Origin: Streptomyces formicae
GTDB lineage: Bacteria > Actinomycetota > Actinomycetes > Streptomycetales > Streptomycetaceae
Direction of reading: 5' to 3'
DNA length: 64,000 bases
Assembly: GCF_002556545.1 (NCBI RefSeq)
Contig: NZ_CP022685.1
Location: forward strand, 2,790,001 to 2,854,000
The position numbers and the translations under genes are program-made. Shown piece after piece: positions 10,956 through 64,000 of the stretch (the first letter of the stretch is position 1; each line of letters begins with the position of its first letter). Under the pieces are notes generated by a model that worked only from the letters and a program-made list of their open reading frames with translations, had not been told where the DNA came from and did no database searches.

Positions 10956-11468
10956 CAAACTCCTCGGGGACTCCAGGCAGCGGTCATCTGCTCCACCGGG
11001 GTACGTCGGGCAGGTCAGCAGCGTCACGCGCGTGACCTTGCAGACCGCTCACGCTAGCGACGTGGCCAGGCTCAGGAACCTGCCCGCAGCCCGAAACTGG
11101 CCTCGGCATATGGACCTAGGGCGCGCCTCAGGGACAGGTCGGCGTGCCACCTCCGCGTGACGTGCACAGACGTCGTCCGCGCTCAGAGCAGCGTCGGCCG
11201 CGTGGTGCCGCCGCACGATCCGGAAACCAACGAGCAGACCCTCGGCTGTGAACCCGCAGGGCAGACACCTCGTACATGAACTTCCGATTCACCCGCCGCC
11301 TGAATGTCCGCTCCAGATCGGAGTTAGACCACCTTCAACGCCCGGAATGCCCAGCTCTTCCACATGAGCGGTGGACAGGGGCGACAATACGCGGACTCGG
11401 ATTCGCCCCAAACAGTTTATTGAGTGAGGAAACATGACCTCTGACCTGTGAAAATAAAGAGCGGCAGA
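10956..11468. other. Gap of about 510 bases between the Rieske gene and rnpB
   Basis: No gene is supported. A short minus-strand open stretch near 11075-11160 reads like residual protein (VTRRWHADLSLRRALGPYAE) but has no start or homology I can name. The 100 bases next to rnpB (11370-11465) are clearly AT-rich. The change from accessory to core-like composition occurs here. Confidence 0.45.
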
Positions 11469-11869
11469 CGAGTCGGGCTGTACGCCGGGTTCTGTCGCCC
11501 GGGCGCCTCGCGGCGGCCGGGGAGACGGCCATCCATCTAGGGCCAGCATTGCTGCCGGCCTCGTGCGGTCTACCCGCGGACTCGGGCGGGCAGCCCTCGA
11601 ACGTCCGCGCAGAGCCACCGAAGTGGCTCCTCTTGACCTTGCTCCAGGTGGGGTTTACCTAGCCGCCTGAGTCACCTCAGGCGCTGGTGGTCTCTTACAC
11701 CACCGTTTCACCCTTACCGGGGGCCTGAGCCCTCGGCGGTCTGTTTTCTGTGGCACTGTCCCGCGGGTCACCCCGGGTGGCTGTTAGCCACCACCTTGCC
11801 CTGTGGAGCCCGGACGTTCCTCGGGAAGCGCCCCCGAAGGGGTCTTCACGCGGCCGTCCGCCCGGCTCG
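11469..11869 (-). ncRNA. rnpB: RNase P RNA (type A)
   Basis: Read on the minus strand, the RNA starts CGAGCCGGGCGGACGGCCGC and ends GCGTACAGCCCGACTCG, so the 5' and 3' ends pair as the P1 helix. The conserved core is intact: GAGGAACGTCCGGGCTCCAC near the 5' end, the ACAGAAA segment, GGTAAGGGTGAAACGGTGG in the middle and AGACCGCACGAGGCCGGC near the 3' side. At about 401 nt it has the usual Streptomyces length. It is the catalytic RNA that matures tRNA 5' ends. Its first 86 bases also encode the C-terminus of the neighbouring transporter on the same strand. Confidence 0.95.
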
Positions 11870-53548: not shown

Positions 53549-56281
53549 TCACGACCCCGCGGTGTCGCGGGACCGGCTCTGGGGCCGCCGGATCGGCGGC
53601 AGGAAGGGGACGTGCGCTCCGGTGTCGCCGAGCGCGCTGGCGAGCGCGAGGAGGCAGCCCGCCGTCCCGGTGTTGAGGTCCATGGAGAGGCGCAGCATCT
53701 GGTTGCCGGGGAAGGCCAGTTGGCCCGCGTACGACATCGCGAACCAGCCGAGCTCCTCGATCTGCGCGGCCACGTCCTCGGGCGTGATGCCCGGCGTGGT
53801 GCTGCGGTTGACGTGCAGGAGCAGTCCTGCCCGCCCCTGGAAGAGGCCCGGCTGCACGCAGAAGCGGGAGCTCGCCGCGGCCAGGATGCCGGGACGTGCC
53901 GCCTCGAAGCGTTCGTCGTCGCGGTGCGCGAGGTAGTCGTCGATGACCATGCCGATGCCGACGCTGCCGTCGCCGAGGTAGGGCATGGTGCGCCAGCCCT
54001 CGTTCACGGCGAGGCTGCCGTCCCGCTTCTGGGTCACGCACTGGTCGAGGTCGGCACGCAGGGCGCGGGCCGCGAGGTCGAGGAGGGCGGGGTCGCCGCC
54101 TCGCTCGTACAGGCGCAGGAAGAGCAGGGCGGGCCCGGTGGCGCCGCGCAGCAGTCCGGCCCTGCGCCTGCCGTTCTTCGGCGGCTCTTCGGAGGCGAGC
54201 CGTTCGCCGAGCAGCTCGGCGGCGCGCAGCGCGTACTGGCCGAGCGTGCGCTCGCCGGTGCTCTCCGCGAGGGAGTCGAGGGCGAGGCCGACTCCGGCGA
54301 GGCCGCCGTACAGGTCGGAGGGGAGGCGCTGCCAGCGTTCCTGGAGGATGAGTTCCGTCAGGTCCAGCGCGCGCTCGCGGTGGCCGAGCCTGTCCAGGAC
54401 GTGGGCGATGCCCGCGAGTCCGTCGTGGAGTCCCAACGGGGTGCCCGCCGGGGCGGGTCGGCTGTGGTCGAGGAGCCAGCGCTCACCCTCCTCGTACCGT
54501 TCCGCGCCGCTCTCGGCGAGGGCGAGGAGGACACCGGCCGCGCCGTGCGCGAGGCCGAGCCCGCCGCCGTCGGCGAACTGCGCGATGTCGCCGGGGAAGA
54601 GCCGGTCGTCGCGCTCCGGGGTGGCGGACGCGAGGATGGCCTTGACCATCGAGTCGCGGCTGTAGGGCCAGTCGGCCGGGTCGACCAGCGGTGCGGCCAC
54701 CCGCGCCGCGGGCCCGGCGGCGCCGGTCGCGCCCCCCTTCGGGAGGCCGCTCTCCAGGGCCTCCGTGTCTCCCGCTCCGCGGACCGGCGCCCGCTCGTCC
54801 CCGTTGGCCCCGGGGGTCCCGCCGTCCCCGCCGGGTGCGCCACGCTCGATCTCGGCCACGGCCTCGGCCAGGAACTCGGCGGGCACGTCGGGGAATTCGG
54901 TGGCGATCACCTGCGCGAAGTGCGCGGCCTTACCCCGGTCGATGGAGAGCAGGGTGGTGATCGGCAGGAAGAGGGCGAGCCGCAGGCAGGCGAGTGCGTA
55001 GCGGTCGACGTCCACGCCCGTGCGGTCCGGCGGCGCGAGGAATCCGGGGTGCGCGACGATCTGGCGCCCCTCGTCGCCGACGGCCGCCGCGGCCTCGAAG
55101 TCGAGCAGCGAGACGGACTGTTCGTCGGGGGCGACCATGATGTTGAACAGGTGCAGGTCGTTGAAGACGACGCCCCGCTCGTGCACGGCGGTGACGGCTT
55201 CCTCGACGGCCCGGTGCATGCGCAGCGCCCAGGCCGTGTACTCCGATATGTCGGCGGCGTCGGGCTCGCTGGTGCACAGCGGATGCCGGTGCGCGAAGAA
55301 GGAGTTGAGGGTGGAGCCCTCCAGGAAGTCCATGACGAGGAAGCGGTGTTCGCCGAGGAGGAACCAGTCGCGCACCTCGGGCGCCACACCGAGCCCGGAG
55401 AGCTTCTGCAGGGCGTCCCGCTCGCGTTCGAGGCGGGCCACGGCGTCGGCGCCGTCGGAGGCGAGGCCCGCGTGCGGACGGCCCTCCTTGAGGACGACCT
55501 TGCTGCCGTCGCGGGTGTCGGTGCCCGCGTAGACCCCGCCGCCGTTGGAGAAGTGCAGCGCCTTCTCGATGCGGTACGGCAGGTCGCCGACGGTCGTCGT
55601 GTTGCGCGCGGCGAGCGCCGGTTCGAGGAAGTCGGGCAGCTTCACCCACGCGGGGACCTTGAAGGCGGGGCCCCGGTCGTCGGGCACGAGCTTGCCCTCG
55701 CCGTCCTCCACGGCGGGCACGAGGGTGCCCTTGCCGTCGTCGCACATGCGGCGGGTGAAGGCGCCGTACCTGACGTACAGCGGCCCCTGCTCCCAGCGCA
55801 GGTCGGTGAGGATGTACGGCCCTTCGAACCCTTCGAGGAGCTTGCCCAACTCATCGAGCAGCTCGTGCAGTTGGTTCTCGTCGGCCGGGTAGACGGTGGC
55901 GAACTTGCCGCTCATGTCACGGCCCGCGTACTTGCTGTTGCGCAGGTGCAGCAGGTGCTTGGCCGGCACGAACTTGAAGGGGACCGAGCGCGGCACGCAG
56001 TGGTCCCACACGAGGGCCGCGATCCGGTCGGCGTTCTCCAGGGTGGCGGAGACGTGGATCTTCCAGCCCTGCTGGGGCGTGGGGAGCGGGGCCCCGTCGT
56101 CGCCGATCGGGACGAGGGAGAACCAGTCACCGGCGCGTGCGGAGCGCCACCCTTCGGGCACCGGGCGCTGGGATACGGGGAACGCGCGGGCACCGCTTCG
56201 GGTGCCCGTGGACGACAGCCGGTCCGGGGTCTCGTAGAAGAATCTGTCGGCCAGACAGTAGACCTCGTACCGCTTGTCCAT
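53549..56281 (-). CDS. ramC: Class III lanthionine synthetase (RamC/LanKC)
   Basis: 910 aa. N-terminal lyase region (about 1-215) with FKFVPAKHLLHLRNSKYAGR. The kinase (about 225-490) has Lys in SKVVLKEGRPHAG, catalytic loop GVVFNDLHLFNIMV and Asp in SLLDFEAAAAVG. The cyclase (about 550-895) is a LanC-like toroid with GLAHGAAGVLLALAESG and YGGLAGVGLALDSLAEST. The zinc Cys-His ligands of class I/II LanC are absent, as expected for class III. It phosphorylates Ser of RamS, eliminates phosphate and forms labionin or lanthionine rings. The 47 bases to ramS put both in one operon. Confidence 0.92.
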   Translation of the reverse strand: MDKRYEVYCLADRFFYETPDRLSSTGTRSGARAFPVSQRPVPEGWRSARAGDWFSLVPIGDDGAPLPTPQQGWKIHVSATLENADRIAALVWDHCVPRSVPFKFVPAKHLLHLRNSKYAGRDMSGKFATVYPADENQLHELLDELGKLLEGFEGPYILTDLRWEQGPLYVRYGAFTRRMCDDGKGTLVPAVEDGEGKLVPDDRGPAFKVPAWVKLPDFLEPALAARNTTTVGDLPYRIEKALHFSNGGGVYAGTDTRDGSKVVLKEGRPHAGLASDGADAVARLERERDALQKLSGLGVAPEVRDWFLLGEHRFLVMDFLEGSTLNSFFAHRHPLCTSEPDAADISEYTAWALRMHRAVEEAVTAVHERGVVFNDLHLFNIMVAPDEQSVSLLDFEAAAAVGDEGRQIVAHPGFLAPPDRTGVDVDRYALACLRLALFLPITTLLSIDRGKAAHFAQVIATEFPDVPAEFLAEAVAEIERGAPGGDGGTPGANGDERAPVRGAGDTEALESGLPKGGATGAAGPAARVAAPLVDPADWPYSRDSMVKAILASATPERDDRLFPGDIAQFADGGGLGLAHGAAGVLLALAESGAERYEEGERWLLDHSRPAPAGTPLGLHDGLAGIAHVLDRLGHRERALDLTELILQERWQRLPSDLYGGLAGVGLALDSLAESTGERTLGQYALRAAELLGERLASEEPPKNGRRRAGLLRGATGPALLFLRLYERGGDPALLDLAARALRADLDQCVTQKRDGSLAVNEGWRTMPYLGDGSVGIGMVIDDYLAHRDDERFEAARPGILAAASSRFCVQPGLFQGRAGLLLHVNRSTTPGITPEDVAAQIEELGWFAMSYAGQLAFPGNQMLRLSMDLNTGTAGCLLALASALGDTGAHVPFLPPIRRPQSRSRDTAGS

Positions 56282-56522: not shown

Positions 56523-56756
56523 CTAGTCCTCCGGCGGGAAGACGACCTCTCCGCTGTCGGCGAGGGTGATCGTGATCGCCTCGACCGGGCAGCCCTCGGC
56601 GGCCTCGAGCACCTTCTCGTTGGCGTCGGTGTCGGGGTGGGTGGGATGCGACTGACGGGCGGTGTCGAGGGTGAAGCCGTCGGGCGCGGTGCCCACGCAC
56701 ATCCCGGAGCCGATGCAGACCGACCGGTCGACCTCGACGTGCCAGCGGTCCCCCAT
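56523..56756 (-). CDS. [3Fe-4S] ferredoxin
   Basis: 77 aa. Three cysteines, C14, C20 and C56, in VCIGSGMCVGTAPDGFTLD and EAAEGCPVEAITI, fit a single 3Fe-4S cluster as in cytochrome P450 ferredoxins. The ATG lies in TGATG with the ALDH stop, a one-base overlap. The pair is probably co-regulated by the KstR-like site upstream of ALDH. Its P450 or other partner is not in the window. Confidence 0.9.
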   Translation of the reverse strand: MGDRWHVEVDRSVCIGSGMCVGTAPDGFTLDTARQSHPTHPDTDANEKVLEAAEGCPVEAITITLADSGEVVFPPED

Positions 56757-58222
56757 CAGGCGCCACTCCCCTCGTATCCGGCGGGGAGGTGGATCATCTG
56801 GTGCTCGAAGTACTCGGCGTACCCCTCGGGCCCGAACTCCCGCCCCAGACCGGAGTTCTTGAAGCCCCCGAAGGGCCCGAGCATGTCGAGGCTGAAGGTG
56901 TTCACGGAGTACGTCCCGGTGCGCACCTGCCGTGCGACGTCGATGCCGCGCTCGACGTCGGCCGTCCACACGCTGCCGCTGAGCCCGTAGTCGGAGTCGT
57001 TGGCGATCTTCACCGCCTCGTCCTGTTCGCCGTACGGCAGGAGGCAGATGACGGGGCCGAAGATCTCCTCGCGGGCGACGCGCATGGAGTTGTCGACGCC
57101 GCCCAGGAGCGTCGGCTCGACGTACCACCCCTGATCGAGCCCGGCCGGGCGGCCGCCGCCCGCGAGGATCTTGGCGCCCTCCTCCTGGCCGATGCGGATG
57201 TAGTCCAGGGAGCGCTGCTGCTGCCTCTTGGCGACGAGCGGGCCCAGCTCGGTGGCGGGGTCGAGGGGGTCGCCGACCTTGAGGGCGGACGCGGCGGCGG
57301 CGAACGCCTCGGCGAACTCGTCGTAGCGGGTGCGCGGCACGAGGATGCGGGTCTGGGCCACGCACGCCTGGCCGTTGATCATCCAGGCGAAGGGGGTGAT
57401 GCCCGCGACGGCGGTGGCCGCGTCGGCGTCCGGCAGGATGACCGCGGCGGACTTGCCGCCGAGCTCCAGGGTGACCCGGGTGAGGTTGCGGGCCGCGACC
57501 TCCATGACGCGCTTGCCCGCCGCGACGGATCCGGTGAAGGAGACCTTGTCGACGCCGGGGTGCGCGACGAGGTACTCGCTGACCTCGCGGTCCGCGGAGA
57601 TGACGGAGAGGACGCCCTGCGGCAGCCCGGCCTCTGCGGCTATCTCGGCCAGGATGTAGGCGTCCAGGGGTGCCTCGGGCGAGGTCTTGAGGATCACCGG
57701 GCACCCGGCGAGCAGCGCGGGGGCGAGCTTGGCCGCGGCGGTGAACTGCGGGACGTTCCAGGGGACGACGGCCGCGACCACCCCCACCGGCTCGCGCCGC
57801 ACGAGGAGTTTCCCGAGGACGCCGTCGCGTGCCTCCTCGTAGGTGAAGTCGCGGGCCACCGTGATGGCCGCGTCCCACGCCATCATCGCGGCGAGCGCCT
57901 GCACCATCACGCTGGAGGTGTACGGGGTGCCGTTCTCCGAGCTGATGGCGCGGGCGATCTCCTCGTGGCGTACGGCGATCCCGTCCTTGATCTTGGTGAC
58001 GACCTCGATCCGCTCGTCCAGGGTCATGCGGCGCCAGGGCCCGTCGTCGAACGCCTTGCGGGCGGTGGCGACGGCGCGGTCCACGTCGGCGGGGGCCGCG
58101 TGCGGCACGCGGGCGAAGACCTTTCCGGTGTGCGGCGACACGACGTCGATGACGCCCTTGCCGAGCGGGTCCACCAACTCCCCGCCGATGAACAGCTGTC
58201 CGTGTTCCACGAGCTCGGTCAT
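56756..58222 (-). CDS. NAD(P)-dependent aldehyde dehydrogenase
   Basis: 488 aa from ATG after AGGAGG. ALDH signature sites: GVVAAVVPWNVPQFTAAAKL (cofactor), KVSFTGSVAAGKRVMEV, VTLELGGKSAAVILPDAD (catalytic Glu region), and the nucleophile Cys in INGQACVAQTR. GQA(C) rather than GQ(V/I)C is a minor variant. It oxidises an aldehyde to an acid, possibly a steroid side-chain or fatty aldehyde given the operator and neighbours. Confidence 0.9.
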   Translation of the reverse strand: MTELVEHGQLFIGGELVDPLGKGVIDVVSPHTGKVFARVPHAAPADVDRAVATARKAFDDGPWRRMTLDERIEVVTKIKDGIAVRHEEIARAISSENGTPYTSSVMVQALAAMMAWDAAITVARDFTYEEARDGVLGKLLVRREPVGVVAAVVPWNVPQFTAAAKLAPALLAGCPVILKTSPEAPLDAYILAEIAAEAGLPQGVLSVISADREVSEYLVAHPGVDKVSFTGSVAAGKRVMEVAARNLTRVTLELGGKSAAVILPDADAATAVAGITPFAWMINGQACVAQTRILVPRTRYDEFAEAFAAAASALKVGDPLDPATELGPLVAKRQQQRSLDYIRIGQEEGAKILAGGGRPAGLDQGWYVEPTLLGGVDNSMRVAREEIFGPVICLLPYGEQDEAVKIANDSDYGLSGSVWTADVERGIDVARQVRTGTYSVNTFSLDMLGPFGGFKNSGLGREFGPEGYAEYFEHQMIHLPAGYEGSGA

Positions 58223-58281
58223 GGCTGACTGCCTCCTGCGGAGCGCTTTCCGACACCGACTTCCTGACACTGTTTCAGAAC

Positions 58282-58412: not shown

Positions 58413-59468
58413 ATGACCCCGCAGGTGACGGACCCGCCGGTGATCGAGCACGGCGGCGGCGTCTGGAGCATCAAGGTCCCGATCCCCGACAACCCCCTCG
58501 GCTTCACCCTCGTCCACCTCCTGGACACCGACCGCGGCGCCGTCCTCGTCGACACCGGCTGGGACGACCCGGCCTCCTGGCACACGCTGGCCGACGGGCT
58601 CGCCGCGTGCGGCGTCGCCGTCGCCGACGTGCACGGCGTGGTCATCACCCACCACCACCCCGACCACCACGGCCTGTCCGCGAAGGTCCGCGAGGCGTCG
58701 GGCGCGTGGATCGCGATGCACGAGGCGGACGCCTCCGTGGTGCGCCGCACCCGCTCCAACCCGCCCGAGCGGTGGTACGCCTACATGGCGGCGAAGCTCA
58801 CGGCCGCGGGCGCCCCCGAGGAGCACGTCGCGCCGCTGGTCCGCGCCGCCGAGGAGGGCCGCCCCAGGAGGCTCCCCGGCCTCGACCCCGCCCTGCCCGA
58901 CCGCGACATCGTCCCCGGCGAGCTCCTCGACCTGGCGGGCCGCCGCCTGCGGGCGATCTGGACCCCGGGCCACACCCCCGGCCACGTCTGCCTGCACCTG
59001 GAGGAGGACCACCCGGCCGGACTCAGGGGCAACGGCCGCCTCTTCTCCGGCGACCACCTGCTGCCCGGCATCACCCCGCACATCGGCCTGTACGAGGACC
59101 CCGACGACGCCACGGTCACCGATCCCCTCGGCGACTACCTCGACTCCCTGGAACGGGTGGCCCGCCTCGACCCGGCCGAGATCCTCCCCGCCCACCAGCA
59201 CGCCTTCACCGACGCCCCCGCCCGCGTCGGCTCGCTCGTCGCCCACCACGAGGAGCGCCTCACCGGGCTGGGCGCCCTCCTCGCCGAGCCCCGCACCGCC
59301 TGGCAGCTCGCCGAGCACATGGAGTGGAACCGGCCCTGGGCCGAGATCCCCTACGGCTCGCGCAACATCGCCGTATCGGAAGCGGAGGCCCATGTGCGGC
59401 GCCTGGTGAAGCTGGGCCGCGCCGAGGTCGTGCCGGGCGGCGACCCGGTGACGTACGTGGCGGTGTGA
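58413..59468 (+). CDS. MBL-fold metallo-hydrolase
   Basis: 351 aa. The metal site HHHPDHHG gives H-x-H-x-D-H, with further ligands in IWTPGHTPGHVC (His), LFSGDHLL (Asp) and ILPAHQHAF (His). The glyoxalase II-like C-terminal helices follow. The substrate could be a thioester; the family also includes lactonases and sulfatases. Control by the KstR-type site suggests a role in acyl-CoA or steroid metabolism. Confidence 0.87.
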   Translation: MTPQVTDPPVIEHGGGVWSIKVPIPDNPLGFTLVHLLDTDRGAVLVDTGWDDPASWHTLADGLAACGVAVADVHGVVITHHHPDHHGLSAKVREASGAWIAMHEADASVVRRTRSNPPERWYAYMAAKLTAAGAPEEHVAPLVRAAEEGRPRRLPGLDPALPDRDIVPGELLDLAGRRLRAIWTPGHTPGHVCLHLEEDHPAGLRGNGRLFSGDHLLPGITPHIGLYEDPDDATVTDPLGDYLDSLERVARLDPAEILPAHQHAFTDAPARVGSLVAHHEERLTGLGALLAEPRTAWQLAEHMEWNRPWAEIPYGSRNIAVSEAEAHVRRLVKLGRAEVVPGGDPVTYVAV

Positions 59469-59499: not shown

Positions 59500-59640
59500 T
59501 CCTGGTACGGGCCGGTAGAGTGGGCGCGTCGTCCTCACGCCCGTACAGGGGGAAGCCGGTGCGAATCCGGCGCTGACCCGCAGCCGTATGACCGCTTCCA
59601 GCGGAGAGCCGGAATGCCCGGTGCGGAACGTGACCGGCTC
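59500..59640 (+). ncRNA. Cobalamin (B12) riboswitch
   Basis: The B12 box reads AAGCCGGTGCGAATCCGG then CGCTGACCCGCAGCCGT (about 59552-59587), with GTACAGGG just before it. A downstream paired region (GAGCCGGAATGCCCGGTGCG) completes the core. The gene at 59762 starts about 120 bases further on, so control may be on transcription or translation; a terminator was not clearly seen. Exact ends are estimates. Confidence 0.88.
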
Positions 59641-59761
59641 GCTTCATCGGACCCCGATGAGCGGCACCGTCGAGGTATACGGAGCCGGAGCCGCCCGGAA
59701 GCCGTGCTCGCAACGGTCCGTGCCGCCCCGCTCCCCGCAGGGAGAGGCAACCCGCCGCATC
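59641..59761 (+). other. Riboswitch expression platform / leader
   Basis: These about 120 bases hold the platform between the B12 aptamer and the ATG at 59762. GGAGAGGC (about 59741-59748) may be the Shine-Dalgarno. Pairing alternatives with the aptamer were not resolved. Confidence 0.45.
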
Positions 59762-60997
59762 ATGAACGTTCGCCGCAGCGCAGCGGTCCTGGCCGCCGTC
59801 GCCGTGTTCGGCTCGGCCGCAGCACCGGCAGCCTTCGCGGACGACGCCTCGCCGTCGCCCGCCGCGCTCCCCTCGGGCCTCTACGGCAAGACCGACCCCA
59901 AGTTCGACGGCGTCTTCCGCCAGTCGTACGCCCTGCTCGCCCAGAGCATGGAGGGCGTCGAGCCCGCCGAGAAGGCCATCGACTGGCTGACCGGGCAGCA
60001 GTGCGCGAGCGGCGGCTTCGCGGCGTACCGCGCGGACGCGAGCGCGCCGTGCGACTCCAAGACCGCGGTCGACAGCAACTCCACCGCCGCGGCCGTGCAG
60101 GCGCTCGCCGGAGTCGGTCACGAGGACAAGACGCTCAAGAAGAGCGTCGAGTGGCTGAAGTCCGTACAGAACACGGACGGTGGCTGGGGCTACAACCCGG
60201 GCCTGCCCACCGACGCGAACTCCACCGGCATCGTGATCGGCGCCCTCGTCGCGGCGGGCGAGAACCCCGCCGACGTGAAGTCCAAGGACGGCAAGTCCGC
60301 CTACGACGCGCTGCCCAAGCTCGTCATGGACTGCGACAAGGACGGCGGCGCCTTCGGCCTCGCCGACCCCAAGTCCGGCAAGCTCTCGCCGAACGCCGAC
60401 GCCACCGCGGCCGGTGTGCTCGGCAGCCTCGGCAGGGGCCTCGTCGTGGAGCCGCCCAAGGACCGCGACGCCACCGGGTCCAAGTGCGCGAAGCCCGACA
60501 CCGCGACGCAGGCGGCGAGCAACGGCGTCGGCTACCTCCTGGACACCCTCGGCAAGACCGACGACCACCTGATGTCCTCGATGCCGGGCGCCAAGGACAA
60601 GCCCGACTTCGGCAACACCGCCGACGCGGTGCTCGCGCTCGCGGCCGCCGACCAGAAGGAGCGGGCCAAGAAGTCCGCCGAGTGGCTCGCGAAGAACTCC
60701 GCGGACTGGGCGAAGCAGTCGGGTCCCGCCGCCTACGCCCAGCTGGTCTTCGCCGCCAACGCGGCGGGGATGGACGCCCGTGACTTCGGCGGCGCCGACC
60801 TGGTGAAGCAGCTCAACGCCACGGGCCCGGCCCCGCGGTCCGCGTCGAAGTCCCCCACCGGCTCCGCCTCCGACTCGGACGAGAAGAAGGACGACGGCGG
60901 CGGCGTCAGCGTCTGGTGGATCATCGGCGTCGGCATGGTCGCCGGCATCGGCATCGGCTTCCTCTACAGCGGCAACCGCAAGAAGCAGCAGCCGTGA
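59762..60997 (+). CDS. Secreted alpha/alpha-toroid protein, probable corrinoid-binding surface protein
   Basis: 411 aa. Signal peptide at 1-28 (AVLAAVAVFGSAAAPAAFAD); then helical repeats with WLTGQQCASGGFAAYR, WLKSVQNTDGGWGYNPGLPT and NSTGIVIGALVAAG, the prenyltransferase/terpene-cyclase-like toroid. A charged Ser/Asp/Lys linker (about 350-380) precedes a C-terminal membrane helix (SVWWIIGVGMVAGIGIGFLY) and a short basic tail. The toroid is the fold of intrinsic factor and transcobalamin. With the riboswitch upstream and ECF genes downstream, a B12-binding function is inferred. Confidence 0.75.
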   Translation: MNVRRSAAVLAAVAVFGSAAAPAAFADDASPSPAALPSGLYGKTDPKFDGVFRQSYALLAQSMEGVEPAEKAIDWLTGQQCASGGFAAYRADASAPCDSKTAVDSNSTAAAVQALAGVGHEDKTLKKSVEWLKSVQNTDGGWGYNPGLPTDANSTGIVIGALVAAGENPADVKSKDGKSAYDALPKLVMDCDKDGGAFGLADPKSGKLSPNADATAAGVLGSLGRGLVVEPPKDRDATGSKCAKPDTATQAASNGVGYLLDTLGKTDDHLMSSMPGAKDKPDFGNTADAVLALAAADQKERAKKSAEWLAKNSADWAKQSGPAAYAQLVFAANAAGMDARDFGGADLVKQLNATGPAPRSASKSPTGSASDSDEKKDDGGGVSVWWIIGVGMVAGIGIGFLYSGNRKKQQP

Positions 60998-61671
60998 CCG
61001 CGGGCCGTGCGCGGCGCGCGCGGCGGCAGGCCGTGGCGCTCCTCGCCGCACTGCTCTGCACGCTCGGCGTCATCGCCGCCGCGCCCGCCCAGGCCGTGGG
61101 ATACCGCTACTGGTCGTTCTGGGAGCGCGACGGCGACAGCTGGACGTACGCCACGCAGGGCCCCGGCACCGCACGACCCGACGACGGCGACGTCCAGGGC
61201 TTCCGCTTCTCGGTCTCCGACGACTCCAAGGACTCCGCCGCGCCGCGCGGCACGGCGGACTTCGACGACATCTGCGCGGACAGGCCCGCACGGGAAGGCC
61301 GCAAGCGGGTCGCCCTCGTCATCGACTTCGGACGGCCGGGGGACGCCCCCAAGGGCGAGAAGCCGCCCGCGGCCAGGACGGCCTGCGCGCAGGTCGGCGA
61401 GGACGCCACCAGCGCCGAGGCCCTCGCCTCCGTCGCCAAGCCGCTGCGCTACGACAGCAACGCCCTGCTCTGCGCCATCTCCGGCTACCCGAAGTCGGGC
61501 TGCGGCGACCAGGTGTCCGGCGACGGCACGTCGAAGAAGGACTCACCCGCGCGGGCCGACGGCGACGCGGGCGACGGCGGCGGGCCCTCCGTCGGTCTGA
61601 TCGCCGGGATCGCCGCCGTCGTGGTGCTCGGCGGCGCCGCGCTCTGGCAGGCCCGCCGTCGTCGCGGCTGA
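60994..61671 (+). CDS. SCO2322-family exported protein
   Basis: 225 aa from GTG, overlapping the previous stop (GTGA). Signal peptide at 1-35 (RQAVALLAALLCTLGVIAAA). The mature domain starts GYRYWSFWERDGDSWTYATQ and contains two Cys-bearing segments. A Ser/Asp/Gly linker leads to a C-terminal helix (GLIAGIAAVVVLGGAALWQA) and an Arg tail, so it is anchored. I know the family only from its name; the location in this operon suggests a partner of the toroid protein in corrinoid uptake. Confidence 0.78.
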   Translation: MTAGRARRARRQAVALLAALLCTLGVIAAAPAQAVGYRYWSFWERDGDSWTYATQGPGTARPDDGDVQGFRFSVSDDSKDSAAPRGTADFDDICADRPAREGRKRVALVIDFGRPGDAPKGEKPPAARTACAQVGEDATSAEALASVAKPLRYDSNALLCAISGYPKSGCGDQVSGDGTSKKDSPARADGDAGDGGGPSVGLIAGIAAVVVLGGAALWQARRRRG

Positions 61672-61690
61672 CGCGGCCGAGGACAGCACG

Positions 61691-62845
61691 ATGACGGACC
61701 ACGGCAGCGGCGCGCCCGGCGCCCTCGGGCGGCGCCTGGCCCCCGCGGCCCACCGGAGCAACGCCCTGCATCCGGGCGCCTGGTGGATCTGGGCGCTCGG
61801 CCTCGGCACCGCCGCGTCGCGCACGACCAATCCGCTCCTGATCGGCCTGCTGATCGGCGTCGCCGGATACGTGGTGGCCGCGCGGCGCTCGTCCGCGCCG
61901 TGGGCGAAGTCGTACGGCGCGTTCGTGAAGCTCGGCCTGGTCGTGATCGGGATCCGGCTCGTCTTCGCGATCGTGCTCGGCTCGCCGATCCCCGGCACGC
62001 ACGTCCTCGTGACACTGCCCGAGGTCCCGCTGCCCGACTGGGCCAAGGGGGTCCGGATCGGCGGCCGGGTCACCGCGGAGGGGCTGCTCTTCGCGCTGTA
62101 CGACGGCATCAGGCTCGCGGGCCTGCTGATCTGCGTCGGCGCCGCGAACGCCCTGGCGAGCCCGGCGCGGCTGCTCAAGTCGCTGCCCGGCGCGCTCTAC
62201 GAGGCCGGGGTCGCCGTCGTGGTGGCGATGACCTTCGCGCCGAACCTGATCACCGACGTGCAGCGGCTGCGGGCCGCGCGGCGGTTGCGCGGGCGCCCCG
62301 ACAGCGGCATCAGAGGGCTCCTCCAGGTGGGGCTGCCGGTCCTCGAAGGGGCGCTCGAACGCTCGGTCGCGCTGGCCGCCGCGATGGACGCGCGCGGCTT
62401 CGGCCGCAGCGCCGCCGTGCCCGTCGCGGTGCGCAGGGCCACCGCCGTGCTGACGCTCGGCGGACTCATGGGCGTGTGCGTCGGGACGTACGGACTGCTG
62501 ACCGCGCAGGGCGCCGCGTACGGCCTGCCCGTCCTCGCCGCCGGGCTGCTCGCCGCGCTCGGCGGGCTCAGGCTCGGCGGCCGCAGGGCCGTGCGCACCC
62601 GCTACCGGCCCGACCGGTGGGGCGCCAGGGCCTGGGCCGTCGCCGGTTCGGGGATCGCCGTCGCGGGGCTGATGGTCCTCGCCTCGTCGTACGGCGTCGC
62701 CGCCCTGCAACCCGGCGTCGTGCCGCTCGTCGCGCCGACGCTGCCGCTGTGGCCCGCGGCCGCGGTGCTGATCGGCCTGCTGCCCGCCTTCGTCGCGCCG
62801 GTGCCCGCCGATTCCTCCCCCACGGTCCCCAAGGAGACGTCATGA
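61691..62845 (+). CDS. ECF transporter T-subunit (EcfT/CbiQ-like)
   Basis: 384 aa with about eight hydrophobic segments. The T-signature that couples to ATPases is at LAAAMDARGFGRSAAVPV (A-x-x-A-R-G-[FG]), with a further cytoplasmic helix ITDVQRLRAARRLRGRPDSG. Length is normal for EcfT with an extended C-terminus. It is 19 bases after the SCO2322-family gene and overlaps the ATPase start (ATGA). Confidence 0.88.
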   Translation: MTDHGSGAPGALGRRLAPAAHRSNALHPGAWWIWALGLGTAASRTTNPLLIGLLIGVAGYVVAARRSSAPWAKSYGAFVKLGLVVIGIRLVFAIVLGSPIPGTHVLVTLPEVPLPDWAKGVRIGGRVTAEGLLFALYDGIRLAGLLICVGAANALASPARLLKSLPGALYEAGVAVVVAMTFAPNLITDVQRLRAARRLRGRPDSGIRGLLQVGLPVLEGALERSVALAAAMDARGFGRSAAVPVAVRRATAVLTLGGLMGVCVGTYGLLTAQGAAYGLPVLAAGLLAALGGLRLGGRRAVRTRYRPDRWGARAWAVAGSGIAVAGLMVLASSYGVAALQPGVVPLVAPTLPLWPAAAVLIGLLPAFVAPVPADSSPTVPKETS

Positions 62846-64000
62846 TCCGCTTCGAGGACGTCTCCGTGACGTACGAGGGAAGTGCCGGGCCCACCGTCCG
62901 GGGGGTCGATCTCACCGTCCCCGAGGGCGAGCTCGTGCTGCTCGTGGGCCCCTCGGGGGTCGGCAAGTCCACGCTGCTCGGTACGGTCAGCGGGCTCGTG
63001 CCGCACTTCACCGGGGGCACCCTGCGCGGCCGGGTGACGGTGGCGGGCCGCGACACCCGTACGCACAAGCCGCGCGAACTGGCCGACGTCGTCGGCACGG
63101 TGGGCCAGGACCCGCTCTCGCACTTCGTCACGGACACCGTCGAGGACGAACTCGCGTACGGCATGGAGTCGCTCGGGCTCGCCCCCGACGTGATGCGCCG
63201 TCGCGTCGAGGAGACCCTGGACCTGCTCGGCCTCGCCGACCTGCGCGACCGCCCCATCGCGACGCTCTCCGGCGGCCAGCAGCAGCGCGTCGCGATCGGC
63301 TCGGTCCTCACCCCGCACCCGCAGGTCCTCGTCCTCGACGAGCCGACCTCCGCCCTGGACCCGGCCGCCGCCGAAGAGGTGCTCGCGGTGCTGCAACGCC
63401 TCGTCCACGACCTCGGCACCACGGTCCTGATGGCCGAGCACCGCCTGGAACGCGTCGTCCAGTACGCGGACCAGGTCCTGCTGCTCGCGTCCCCCGGCGA
63501 GCCCCCGGTACTCGGCGACCCCGCCACGCTGATGGCCCGCTCCCCCGTCCACCCCCCGGTGGTGGCCCTCGGCAGGATCGCGGGCTGGTCCCCCCTGCCC
63601 CTGACGGTGCGCGACGCCCGCCGCAAGGCGGGCCCGCTGCGGGAGCGCCTCGCGCAGGCGGCGCCGGAACGTCCGGGCGAGCACGCACCGGGCGATCGCC
63701 CGCGCCCGTCGGGGGACCGCGCGGCAGGAAAGACCGGCGACCCGGCACCCGGCCGCCGGCCGCGCCTGCGCAGGGCCCGCGCGGCCGCGCCGACCGGTGC
63801 GCACCGGGAGCCAGGGGCCTCGGTCCACGCCGCCCTGGTCGACCGGCTCGCCGTCCGGCGCGGGCGCGTCGAGGCGCTGCGGCGGGTCGACCTCGCCGTC
63901 ACGCCCGGTGAGACCGTCGCCCTGATGGGACGCAACGGCGCGGGCAAGTCCACGCTCCTCTCCACCCTGGTCGGCCTCCTCGAACCCACGTCGGGCACGG
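62842..64000 (+). CDS. ECF transporter double ATPase (EcfA-A'), runs off the right edge
   Basis: At least 386 aa are visible. The first ATPase (1-235) has Walker A VGPSGVGKSTLLGTV, Q-loop TVGQDPLSHFVTD, signature TLSGGQQQRVAIGS and Walker B VLVLDEPTSALDP. After a basic Pro/Arg-rich linker (about 255-330), a second ATPase begins with Walker A MGRNGAGKSTLLSTL near the edge. ATG overlaps the T-subunit stop (ATGA). The S-subunit that confers substrate choice is not in the window and probably follows. Confidence 0.9.
   Translation, partial: MIRFEDVSVTYEGSAGPTVRGVDLTVPEGELVLLVGPSGVGKSTLLGTVSGLVPHFTGGTLRGRVTVAGRDTRTHKPRELADVVGTVGQDPLSHFVTDTVEDELAYGMESLGLAPDVMRRRVEETLDLLGLADLRDRPIATLSGGQQQRVAIGSVLTPHPQVLVLDEPTSALDPAAAEEVLAVLQRLVHDLGTTVLMAEHRLERVVQYADQVLLLASPGEPPVLGDPATLMARSPVHPPVVALGRIAGWSPLPLTVRDARRKAGPLRERLAQAAPERPGEHAPGDRPRPSGDRAAGKTGDPAPGRRPRLRRARAAAPTGAHREPGASVHAALVDRLAVRRGRVEALRRVDLAVTPGETVALMGRNGAGKSTLLSTLVGLLEPTSGT

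Follow-up and report, generated by a model that had tools for sequence, protein, structure and literature searches.

Secreted proteins that join an alpha/alpha toroid to a beta-grasp domain, and are encoded together with CbiO/CbiQ genes, were proposed by Burroughs et al. in 2007 to scavenge vitamin B12 in bacteria usually lacking key B12 synthesis enzymes (PMC1796856). In the available part of that paper, this transcobalamin-like clade of SLBB (soluble-ligand-binding beta-grasp) domains is reported from low-GC Gram-positives, planctomycetes and euryarchaea, and not from actinomycetes. The operon described here is found in Streptomyces formicae, across the right end of a 64-kb stretch of DNA (the window) which is part of a 9.61 Mb single-contig genome. 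It encodes a toroid protein of the SCO2321 family and a protein of the SCO2322 family, followed by the EcfT, double EcfA and S-component of an energy-coupling factor (ECF) importer. A secreted toroid, a candidate beta-grasp protein and CbiO/CbiQ-type genes are shared with the SLBB clade, but the host is a Streptomyces carrying B12 synthesis genes, and the beta-half would be a separate and circularly permuted protein; the word stem 'permut' is absent from PMC1796856.

Other described systems share parts of this organization. Animal transcobalamin, haptocorrin and intrinsic factor have the same two-part make-up of alpha/alpha toroid and beta-grasp domain; in the Streptomyces operon the parts are instead two proteins, membrane-anchored and coupled to an ECF module, with a permuted beta-half and putative binding of corrinoids. 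ECF-CbrT (6FNP) and the predicted CbrTUV similarly combine an ECF motor with an S-component that, judging by profiles, belongs to the same wider family. The motor used by CbrT also serves further S-components, FolT2 among them (PMC5997447, in the text available), whereas a single operon with a double ATPase here encodes the motor, its S-component and the two surface proteins. BtuFCD-type ATP-binding cassette (ABC) importers are also riboswitch-linked B12 uptake systems, and BtuF-like genes are recognizable by eye in the host genome, but the operon encodes another transporter class and other binding proteins. Both surface proteins are members by score of NCBIfam families (NF053823 and NF040672) whose names carry no function.

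The operon is probably a riboswitch-linked ECF importer of corrinoids, in which the toroid and a permuted beta-grasp protein would act at the surface as a split transcobalamin. Held with less assurance, though still favoured, is a broader reading. Actinomycetes, Streptomyces included, would have a split surface intrinsic factor with a permuted beta-half, with DUF4430 or an unpermuted family and SCO2322 swapped in one position of an ECF operon linked to a B12 riboswitch; where there is no toroid, the beta-half would serve alone. If so, two families known by locus tag only, SCO2321 and SCO2322, would gain a concrete role, and a vitamin-binding domain would be naturally permuted with both forms in the same operon position, so that structure, binding and evolution become directly comparable. 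The bacterial origin proposed for animal B12 carriers (PMC1796856, available part) would moreover cover Actinomycetes, and organisms that probably produce B12. What is added to earlier work is the permutation, the exchange of slot proteins and the existence of systems without a toroid. In the literature searched, mostly open-access, no paper on SCO2322 was found, and none tying DUF4430 to a permuted form; DUF4430 is named in six papers, and together with cobalamin in two. A search for SCO2321, SCO2323, SCO2324 or SCO2325 yielded a single paper, on a transdermal peptide.

Half order in SCO2322 and in its relatives

A second ECF operon, identified in the Streptomyces genome G089 (locus L115), features just before EcfT a gene encoding a protein, P0361, in which the SCO2322 halves are exchanged. 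P0361 fits no Pfam family at E<=0.1. Relatives were matched in 79 of the 296 genomes sampled from the class, some of the matches concerning only the half shared with SCO2322. At 20 loci hosting this unpermuted family (L146-L165), EcfT, EcfA and EcfS adjoin in 18 and a toroid in 16, and a B12 riboswitch is found on the operon strand at 7 of the 9 scanned.

Profiles of SCO2322 and of the unpermuted family were compared by hhalign. Unrotated, just 36 columns of one half were aligned (score 68.0). Upon rotation of SCO2322, with the best cut before VALVI, the alignment spanned columns 9-115 of 117 (score 105.0, P 2e-18). Each SCO2322 half (SB the first, SA the second) matches its own counterpart in the unpermuted family (UA N-terminal, UB C-terminal), and not the other half (Table 1). 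The order B-A was found in all 240 SCO2322 homologues (P0001-P0120, P0241-P0360) and in 51/51 open reading frames (ORFs) of SCO2322 loci, the order A-B in 26/26 ORFs of unpermuted loci and in P0361; the half-profiles were built partly from the scored sequences, and the 51 ORFs include genes counted twice where two loci overlap. Judged by these alignments, SCO2322 is a circularly permuted form of the slot-equivalent unpermuted domain.

DUF4430 (PF14478) is the beta-grasp domain of transcobalamin and intrinsic factor, located at the C-terminus of transcobalamin. SCO2322 does not match PF14478, and the host genome lacks DUF4430 matches at E<=0.001; comparison of profiles revealed a relationship beyond the sensitivity of Pfam. 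The second half of SCO2322 aligns on the first half of DUF4430 (P 2.9e-5, probability 74%), and rotation widens the alignment to DUF4430 columns 21-94, the score rising from 31.3 to 34.1. For the unpermuted family the alignment with DUF4430 needs no rotation and covers columns 24-95 (P 1.4e-4). When the columns of the DUF4430 profile were shuffled, 0 of 150 shuffles equalled any of the three scores. DUF4430 domains of the same operon slot match transcobalamin-1 weakly by profile (E 1.3).

In the AlphaFold model, the SCO2322 core is predicted to form one compact domain (predicted local distance difference test, pLDDT, 94.3; predicted template modelling score, pTM, 0.89). Strands are located at residues 5-15, 18-21, 36-44, 72-80, 97-104, 120-122 and 128-131, the main helix at 109-116, and a short helix at 59-62, in the linker. 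Starting at residue 72 and continuing through the C-terminal end to residue 44, the model features the order strand-strand-helix-(short strand)-strand-strand-strand. This predicted order is in keeping with that of the transcobalamin-clade beta-grasp, in which a hairpin follows the helix (PMC1796856, available part). As the last two strands come first in SCO2322, and the order is restored by rotation, the protein would be a permuted relative, and not a member in sequence order. SCO2322 is proposed to be the permuted counterpart of the transcobalamin beta-domain.

A tree of 61 EcfA rows, built by a quick method and with the DUF4430 type chosen as the root, requires four slot changes; 14 of its 58 inner branches are weak. 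Fifteen of the 19 unpermuted rows cluster in a single clade within the SCO2322 type, three are basal to the joint group, and L165 stands apart. With unpermuted rows so scattered, a single one-way permutation fails to emerge.

Behind the toroid, the L115 cluster also encodes a further protein that looks secreted and partially matches DUF4430 (L115:7370-8134, + strand), and hence hosts both an unpermuted SCO2322 relative and DUF4430. Riboswitch control of the L115 operon was rejected, because the adjoining B12 riboswitch is on the opposite strand. At L148, an unpermuted slot protein (L148:5493-6250, - strand) directly follows a cobalamin riboswitch of its own; it is encoded downstream of the ECF operon, in which there is another copy.

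DUF4430 was matched in 34 of 198 genomes of the phylum. At 19 DUF4430 loci from outside the class (L096-L114), EcfA and EcfS are nearby in 16 and a toroid in 12. DUF4430 directly precedes EcfT in all 13 loci with a detected EcfT, and the toroid comes after EcfS in all 12 that have one. Upstream B12 riboswitches on the same strand were found at 12 of the 16 loci scanned, at distances of roughly 1 to 5 kb from the DUF4430 gene. The slot before EcfT is common to SCO2322, the unpermuted family and DUF4430.

A cross-phylum scan was carried out with a profile of S-components headed by a sequence of the DUF4430 type. The best 80 of at least 591 confirmed stretches were used, mostly from Bacillota, with some from Actinomycetota and archaea. 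DUF4430 was found near 71 of these 80 and a toroid near 49, in a sample that leans to the DUF4430 type, includes some short contigs, and was searched with DUF4430 and toroid profiles built here. In the same 80 stretches, toroid and DUF4430 are fused, in either order, in 33 ORFs; toroids fused on either side of a beta-grasp domain occur in other examples (PMC1796856, available part).

Riboswitch, S-component and distribution of the operon

The score of the predicted riboswitch in the window is just above the gathering threshold (Table 1; E 3.8e-5 over the window). The match spans positions 45-169 of the 189 of the Rfam model, and the aptamer ends 142 bases from the toroid start codon. Among 20 other Streptomyces genomes, 16 have a B12-family aptamer match (E<=0.1) on the operon strand, before or around the start of the orthologous toroid gene, nine of these matches being above gathering. 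The riboswitch is weak in score but recurrent. The host genome has nine RF00174 matches over the cut-off in all. Some of the other eight precede genes which, from frames read by eye, are CbiM-, BtuF- (two), CobN-, CobD/CobQ- and ribonucleotide-reductase-like, and the host probably makes B12 itself.

The S-component has no CbiM family match, and fits PF12822 instead. A profile of 14 S-components, 11 from DUF4430-type and three from SCO2322-type operons, finds 6FNP chain A (E 2.4e-26), and a profile of the 11 DUF4430-type sequences alone finds it as well (E 1.1e-26). 6FNP is ECF-CbrT, the proven B12 importer of Lactobacillus delbrueckii (PMC5997447, available part). The profile of SCO2322-type S-components plus that of L115, and the profile of the DUF4430 type, join over 194 columns (P 3.5e-26). 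By these profiles, the relationship of the S-component of the S. formicae operon to CbrT is transitive, through the wider family.

SCO2322 was matched in 112 of the 296 genomes sampled from the class. At 20 SCO2322 loci from different genomes, belonging to other families of the class (L040-L059), EcfT, EcfA and EcfS are found together in 17 and a toroid in nine; these loci were picked for SCO2322, and the frequencies of toroid and SCO2322 in them are no fair comparison. Eighteen of the loci (all but L056 and L058) were scanned for B12 riboswitches, and 11 have one immediately before the genes, on the strand of the operon. In four of the 11 (L040, L041, L042 and L047) the riboswitch precedes SCO2322 itself, and no toroid is found within 16 kb. 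L040, L041 and L042 come from reduced genomes of 1.3-1.6 Mb, which retain riboswitch, SCO2322 and ECF genes without a toroid. Their SCO2322 proteins lack the C-terminal anchor, and the L042 copy is lipoprotein-like by eye. In gene content these genomes resemble freshwater Nanopelagicales. At L054 (6375-8584, + strand) an adenosylcobalamin riboswitch, a toroid and SCO2322 are found, and ECF genes were not detected within 16 kb; the ECF motor of this system may be encoded elsewhere.

Toroid, proposed mechanism and rival explanations

The AlphaFold model of the SCO2321-family protein (pLDDT 92.4) is an alpha/alpha toroid by fold. Its closest solved structures, among the matches listed, are terpene cyclases, and both in sequence and in fold it is nearest to squalene-hopene and drimenyl cyclases. 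DXDD is the catalytic motif of terpene cyclases, and is absent from the toroid of the window.

At low intracellular cobalamin, the toroid and SCO2322 proteins would be made, and both, anchored at the surface, would capture corrinoid outside the membrane. The toroid would be the counterpart of the alpha-domain of transcobalamin and SCO2322, circularly permuted, that of the beta-grasp domain, and the corrinoid would be held probably between the two proteins, as between the two domains of transcobalamin. The ligand would be handed to the CbrT-like S-component, which the motor made by EcfT and double EcfA would turn inward. SCO2322 would need to function without a toroid in those lineages in which none was found.

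Several results weigh against this mechanism. The first half of SCO2322 and the C-terminal half of DUF4430, compared alone, match weakly (P 0.05). SCO2322 has no Pfam family at E<=1 (the newer PF28005 is precomputed for its homologues), and Foldseek, in sequential structure searches, found no solved relative (best E 2.6); lack of relatives is expected of a permuted fold, but equally of an unrelated one. The S-component of the S. formicae operon does not reach CbrT as a single query, and no CbrT was found by the profile of 15 S-components (14 of the SCO2322 type, including that of S. formicae, plus L115). No transcobalamin is among the 50 structure matches listed for the toroid. A genome-wide search of 14 SCO2322-bearing genomes, with an alignment of ten toroids as query, found no toroid in 13 of them; in the fourteenth, G131, a partial match is located away from SCO2322. 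Eleven of the 14 have no toroid within 16 kb, G019 none in flanks of 1.5 kb, and G044 and G145 were included without a prior local look. As a control, the search was positive in 12/12 genomes in which toroid and slot protein are known to be neighbours; four of these genomes had contributed rows to the query alignment. Finally, the host already has riboswitch-linked BtuF-like and B12 synthesis genes, recognized by eye, which puts in doubt its need for the operon.

Given the 13 negative genomes and the 12 positive controls, the toroid is dispensable in part of the class, and the notion that every SCO2322 system needs one was dropped. The original prediction, made from the sequence of the window alone, had based the likeness to transcobalamin on the toroid. 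The fold is borne out by the model, but it is generic, and no toroid was found in most of the SCO2322 genomes searched; for these reasons the toroid alone is insufficient for the analogy. Capture at the surface, also predicted, is supported, with the difference that the analogy is carried by SCO2322 as the putative permuted counterpart of the beta-domain. The B12 uptake route, called unusual in the original prediction, is not rare, given the frequency of SCO2322 in the class, and the idea of toroid, beta-grasp and CbiO/CbiQ acting together dates from 2007, when it was put forward mainly for low-GC Gram-positives (PMC1796856, available part).

Instead of B12 itself, the operon might import one of its precursors, be it cobinamide, cobyrinate diamide or dimethylbenzimidazole (DMB), which the surface proteins would bind. 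A review assigns CbrUVT to 'cobyrinate diamide uptake' and CblTS to the uptake of DMB (PMC8123684, available part), ECF-CbrT carries both cobalamin and cobinamide (PMC5997447, available part), and the riboswitch-linked CobN- and CobD/CobQ-like genes seen by eye make the host a probable B12 producer. We consider this unlikely, as the nearest proven S-component carries cobalamin, and the operon is also kept by the reduced genomes of 1.3-1.6 Mb.

Alternatively, there was no permutation but an independent shuffling of the same pair of small beta-modules, and the likeness to DUF4430 reflects a common beta-hairpin pattern. The weak match of the SCO2322 first half to the C-terminal half of DUF4430 would fit this rather improbable scenario. 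The pairing of each half with its own counterpart, the single compact domain predicted for SCO2322, the modelled element order, which after rotation is that of the beta-grasp (PMC1796856, available part), and the gene slot shared with the unpermuted family all argue for a circular permutation.

Import of cobalt is very unlikely. EcfT is CbiQ-like and matches PF02361 'Cobalt transport protein', B12 riboswitches control cobalt uptake too, and a riboswitch-linked CbiM-like gene was noted by eye elsewhere in the host genome. Yet the S-component is of the PF12822 type, its wider family leads to CbrT, and a metal ion would not call for large surface proteins of the transcobalamin type. That the toroid is an enzyme, akin to terpene cyclases or prenyltransferases and only incidentally located in the operon, is hardly credible in spite of its similarity to cyclases, as it looks secreted, toroids recur across phyla in related operons, and in the two sets of aligned toroids the cyclase motif form D.DDTA is found in 0/121 and 0/10, D.NST in 119/121 and 9/10, and D.DD anywhere in 32/121 and 0/10.

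Operon layout and neighbouring genes

Table 1. Location of the operon features, in window coordinates (the window ends at 64000)
Feature	Position	Strand	Evidence
Cobalamin riboswitch aptamer	59549-59619	+	RF00174, 34.8 bits (Rfam gathering threshold 31.5)
SCO2321-family protein: alpha/alpha toroid with a signal peptide and a transmembrane anchor at the C-terminus	59762-60997	+	NF053823
SCO2322-family protein: signal peptide, single beta-rich domain, GPS-CTERM anchor	60994-61671	+	NF040672, NF040681
SCO2322 domain, first half (YRYW...FRFSV), matching the C-terminal half of the unpermuted family	61102-61215	+	SB vs UB P 2.9e-14, SB vs UA P 0.88
SCO2322 domain, second half (RVALVIDFG...SGCGD), matching the N-terminal halves of DUF4430 and the unpermuted family	61306-61512	+	SA vs UA P 1e-7, SA vs UB P 0.59
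EcfT, transmembrane coupling protein of the ECF module	61691-62845	+	PF02361 CbiQ 29.6 bits, cut-off 25
Double EcfA ATPase, a single chain with two ABC cassettes	62842 to window-equivalent 64596	+	ABC_tran, two stretches, 195.1 bits
ECF S-component	window-equivalent 64593-65429 (L009:8594-9430)		follows EcfA; PF12822 31.1 bits, cut-off 30.7

EcfT, two EcfA domains and an S-component are encoded together, as in operons of the ECF group I type. Start and stop codons overlap by 4 bases at three of the four gene junctions (toroid/SCO2322, EcfT/EcfA and EcfA/S-component), and the five genes are therefore likely to be read as a single transcript. Toroid and putative beta-grasp are not in one polypeptide, as in transcobalamin and intrinsic factor, but in two proteins encoded by overlapping genes.

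The original prediction of B12-type regulation and an ECF importer agrees with the riboswitch score and with the Pfam identification of EcfT and double EcfA. The two surface proteins score over the family cut-offs: the toroid protein matches NF053823 ('SCO2321 family membrane protein') with 596.1 bits (cut-off 300), and the SCO2322 protein matches NF040672 with 232.7 bits (cut-off 85) and carries a GPS-CTERM anchor (35.8 bits, cut-off 28); signal peptides and the transmembrane tail of the toroid were judged by eye from the sequence. An S-component had been expected to the right of the window edge, and is indeed present, starting 593 bases past 64000. The start set at 59500 was correct, and the operon ends about 1.4 kb past the window.

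About 190 bases past the S-component, on the same strand, a small protein resembling SLT/aggregation-promoting factors is encoded. The gene 5' of the riboswitch (58413-59468, + strand) encodes a metallo-beta-lactamase (MBL)-fold hydrolase of the Strvi_7410 family (NF053820, 673.9 bits, cut-off 525), and is apparently separate from the operon. Further upstream, on the opposite strand, are a frame that is aldehyde dehydrogenase-like by eye (56523-58270), with an overlapping ORF ending like a small ferredoxin, and a protein of 910 residues (53549-56281), by eye similar to class III/IV lanthipeptide synthetases, with a kinase-like middle and a LanC-like C-terminus. A bacterial RNase P RNA of class A (286.5 bits) is located at 11465-11869, on the - strand.

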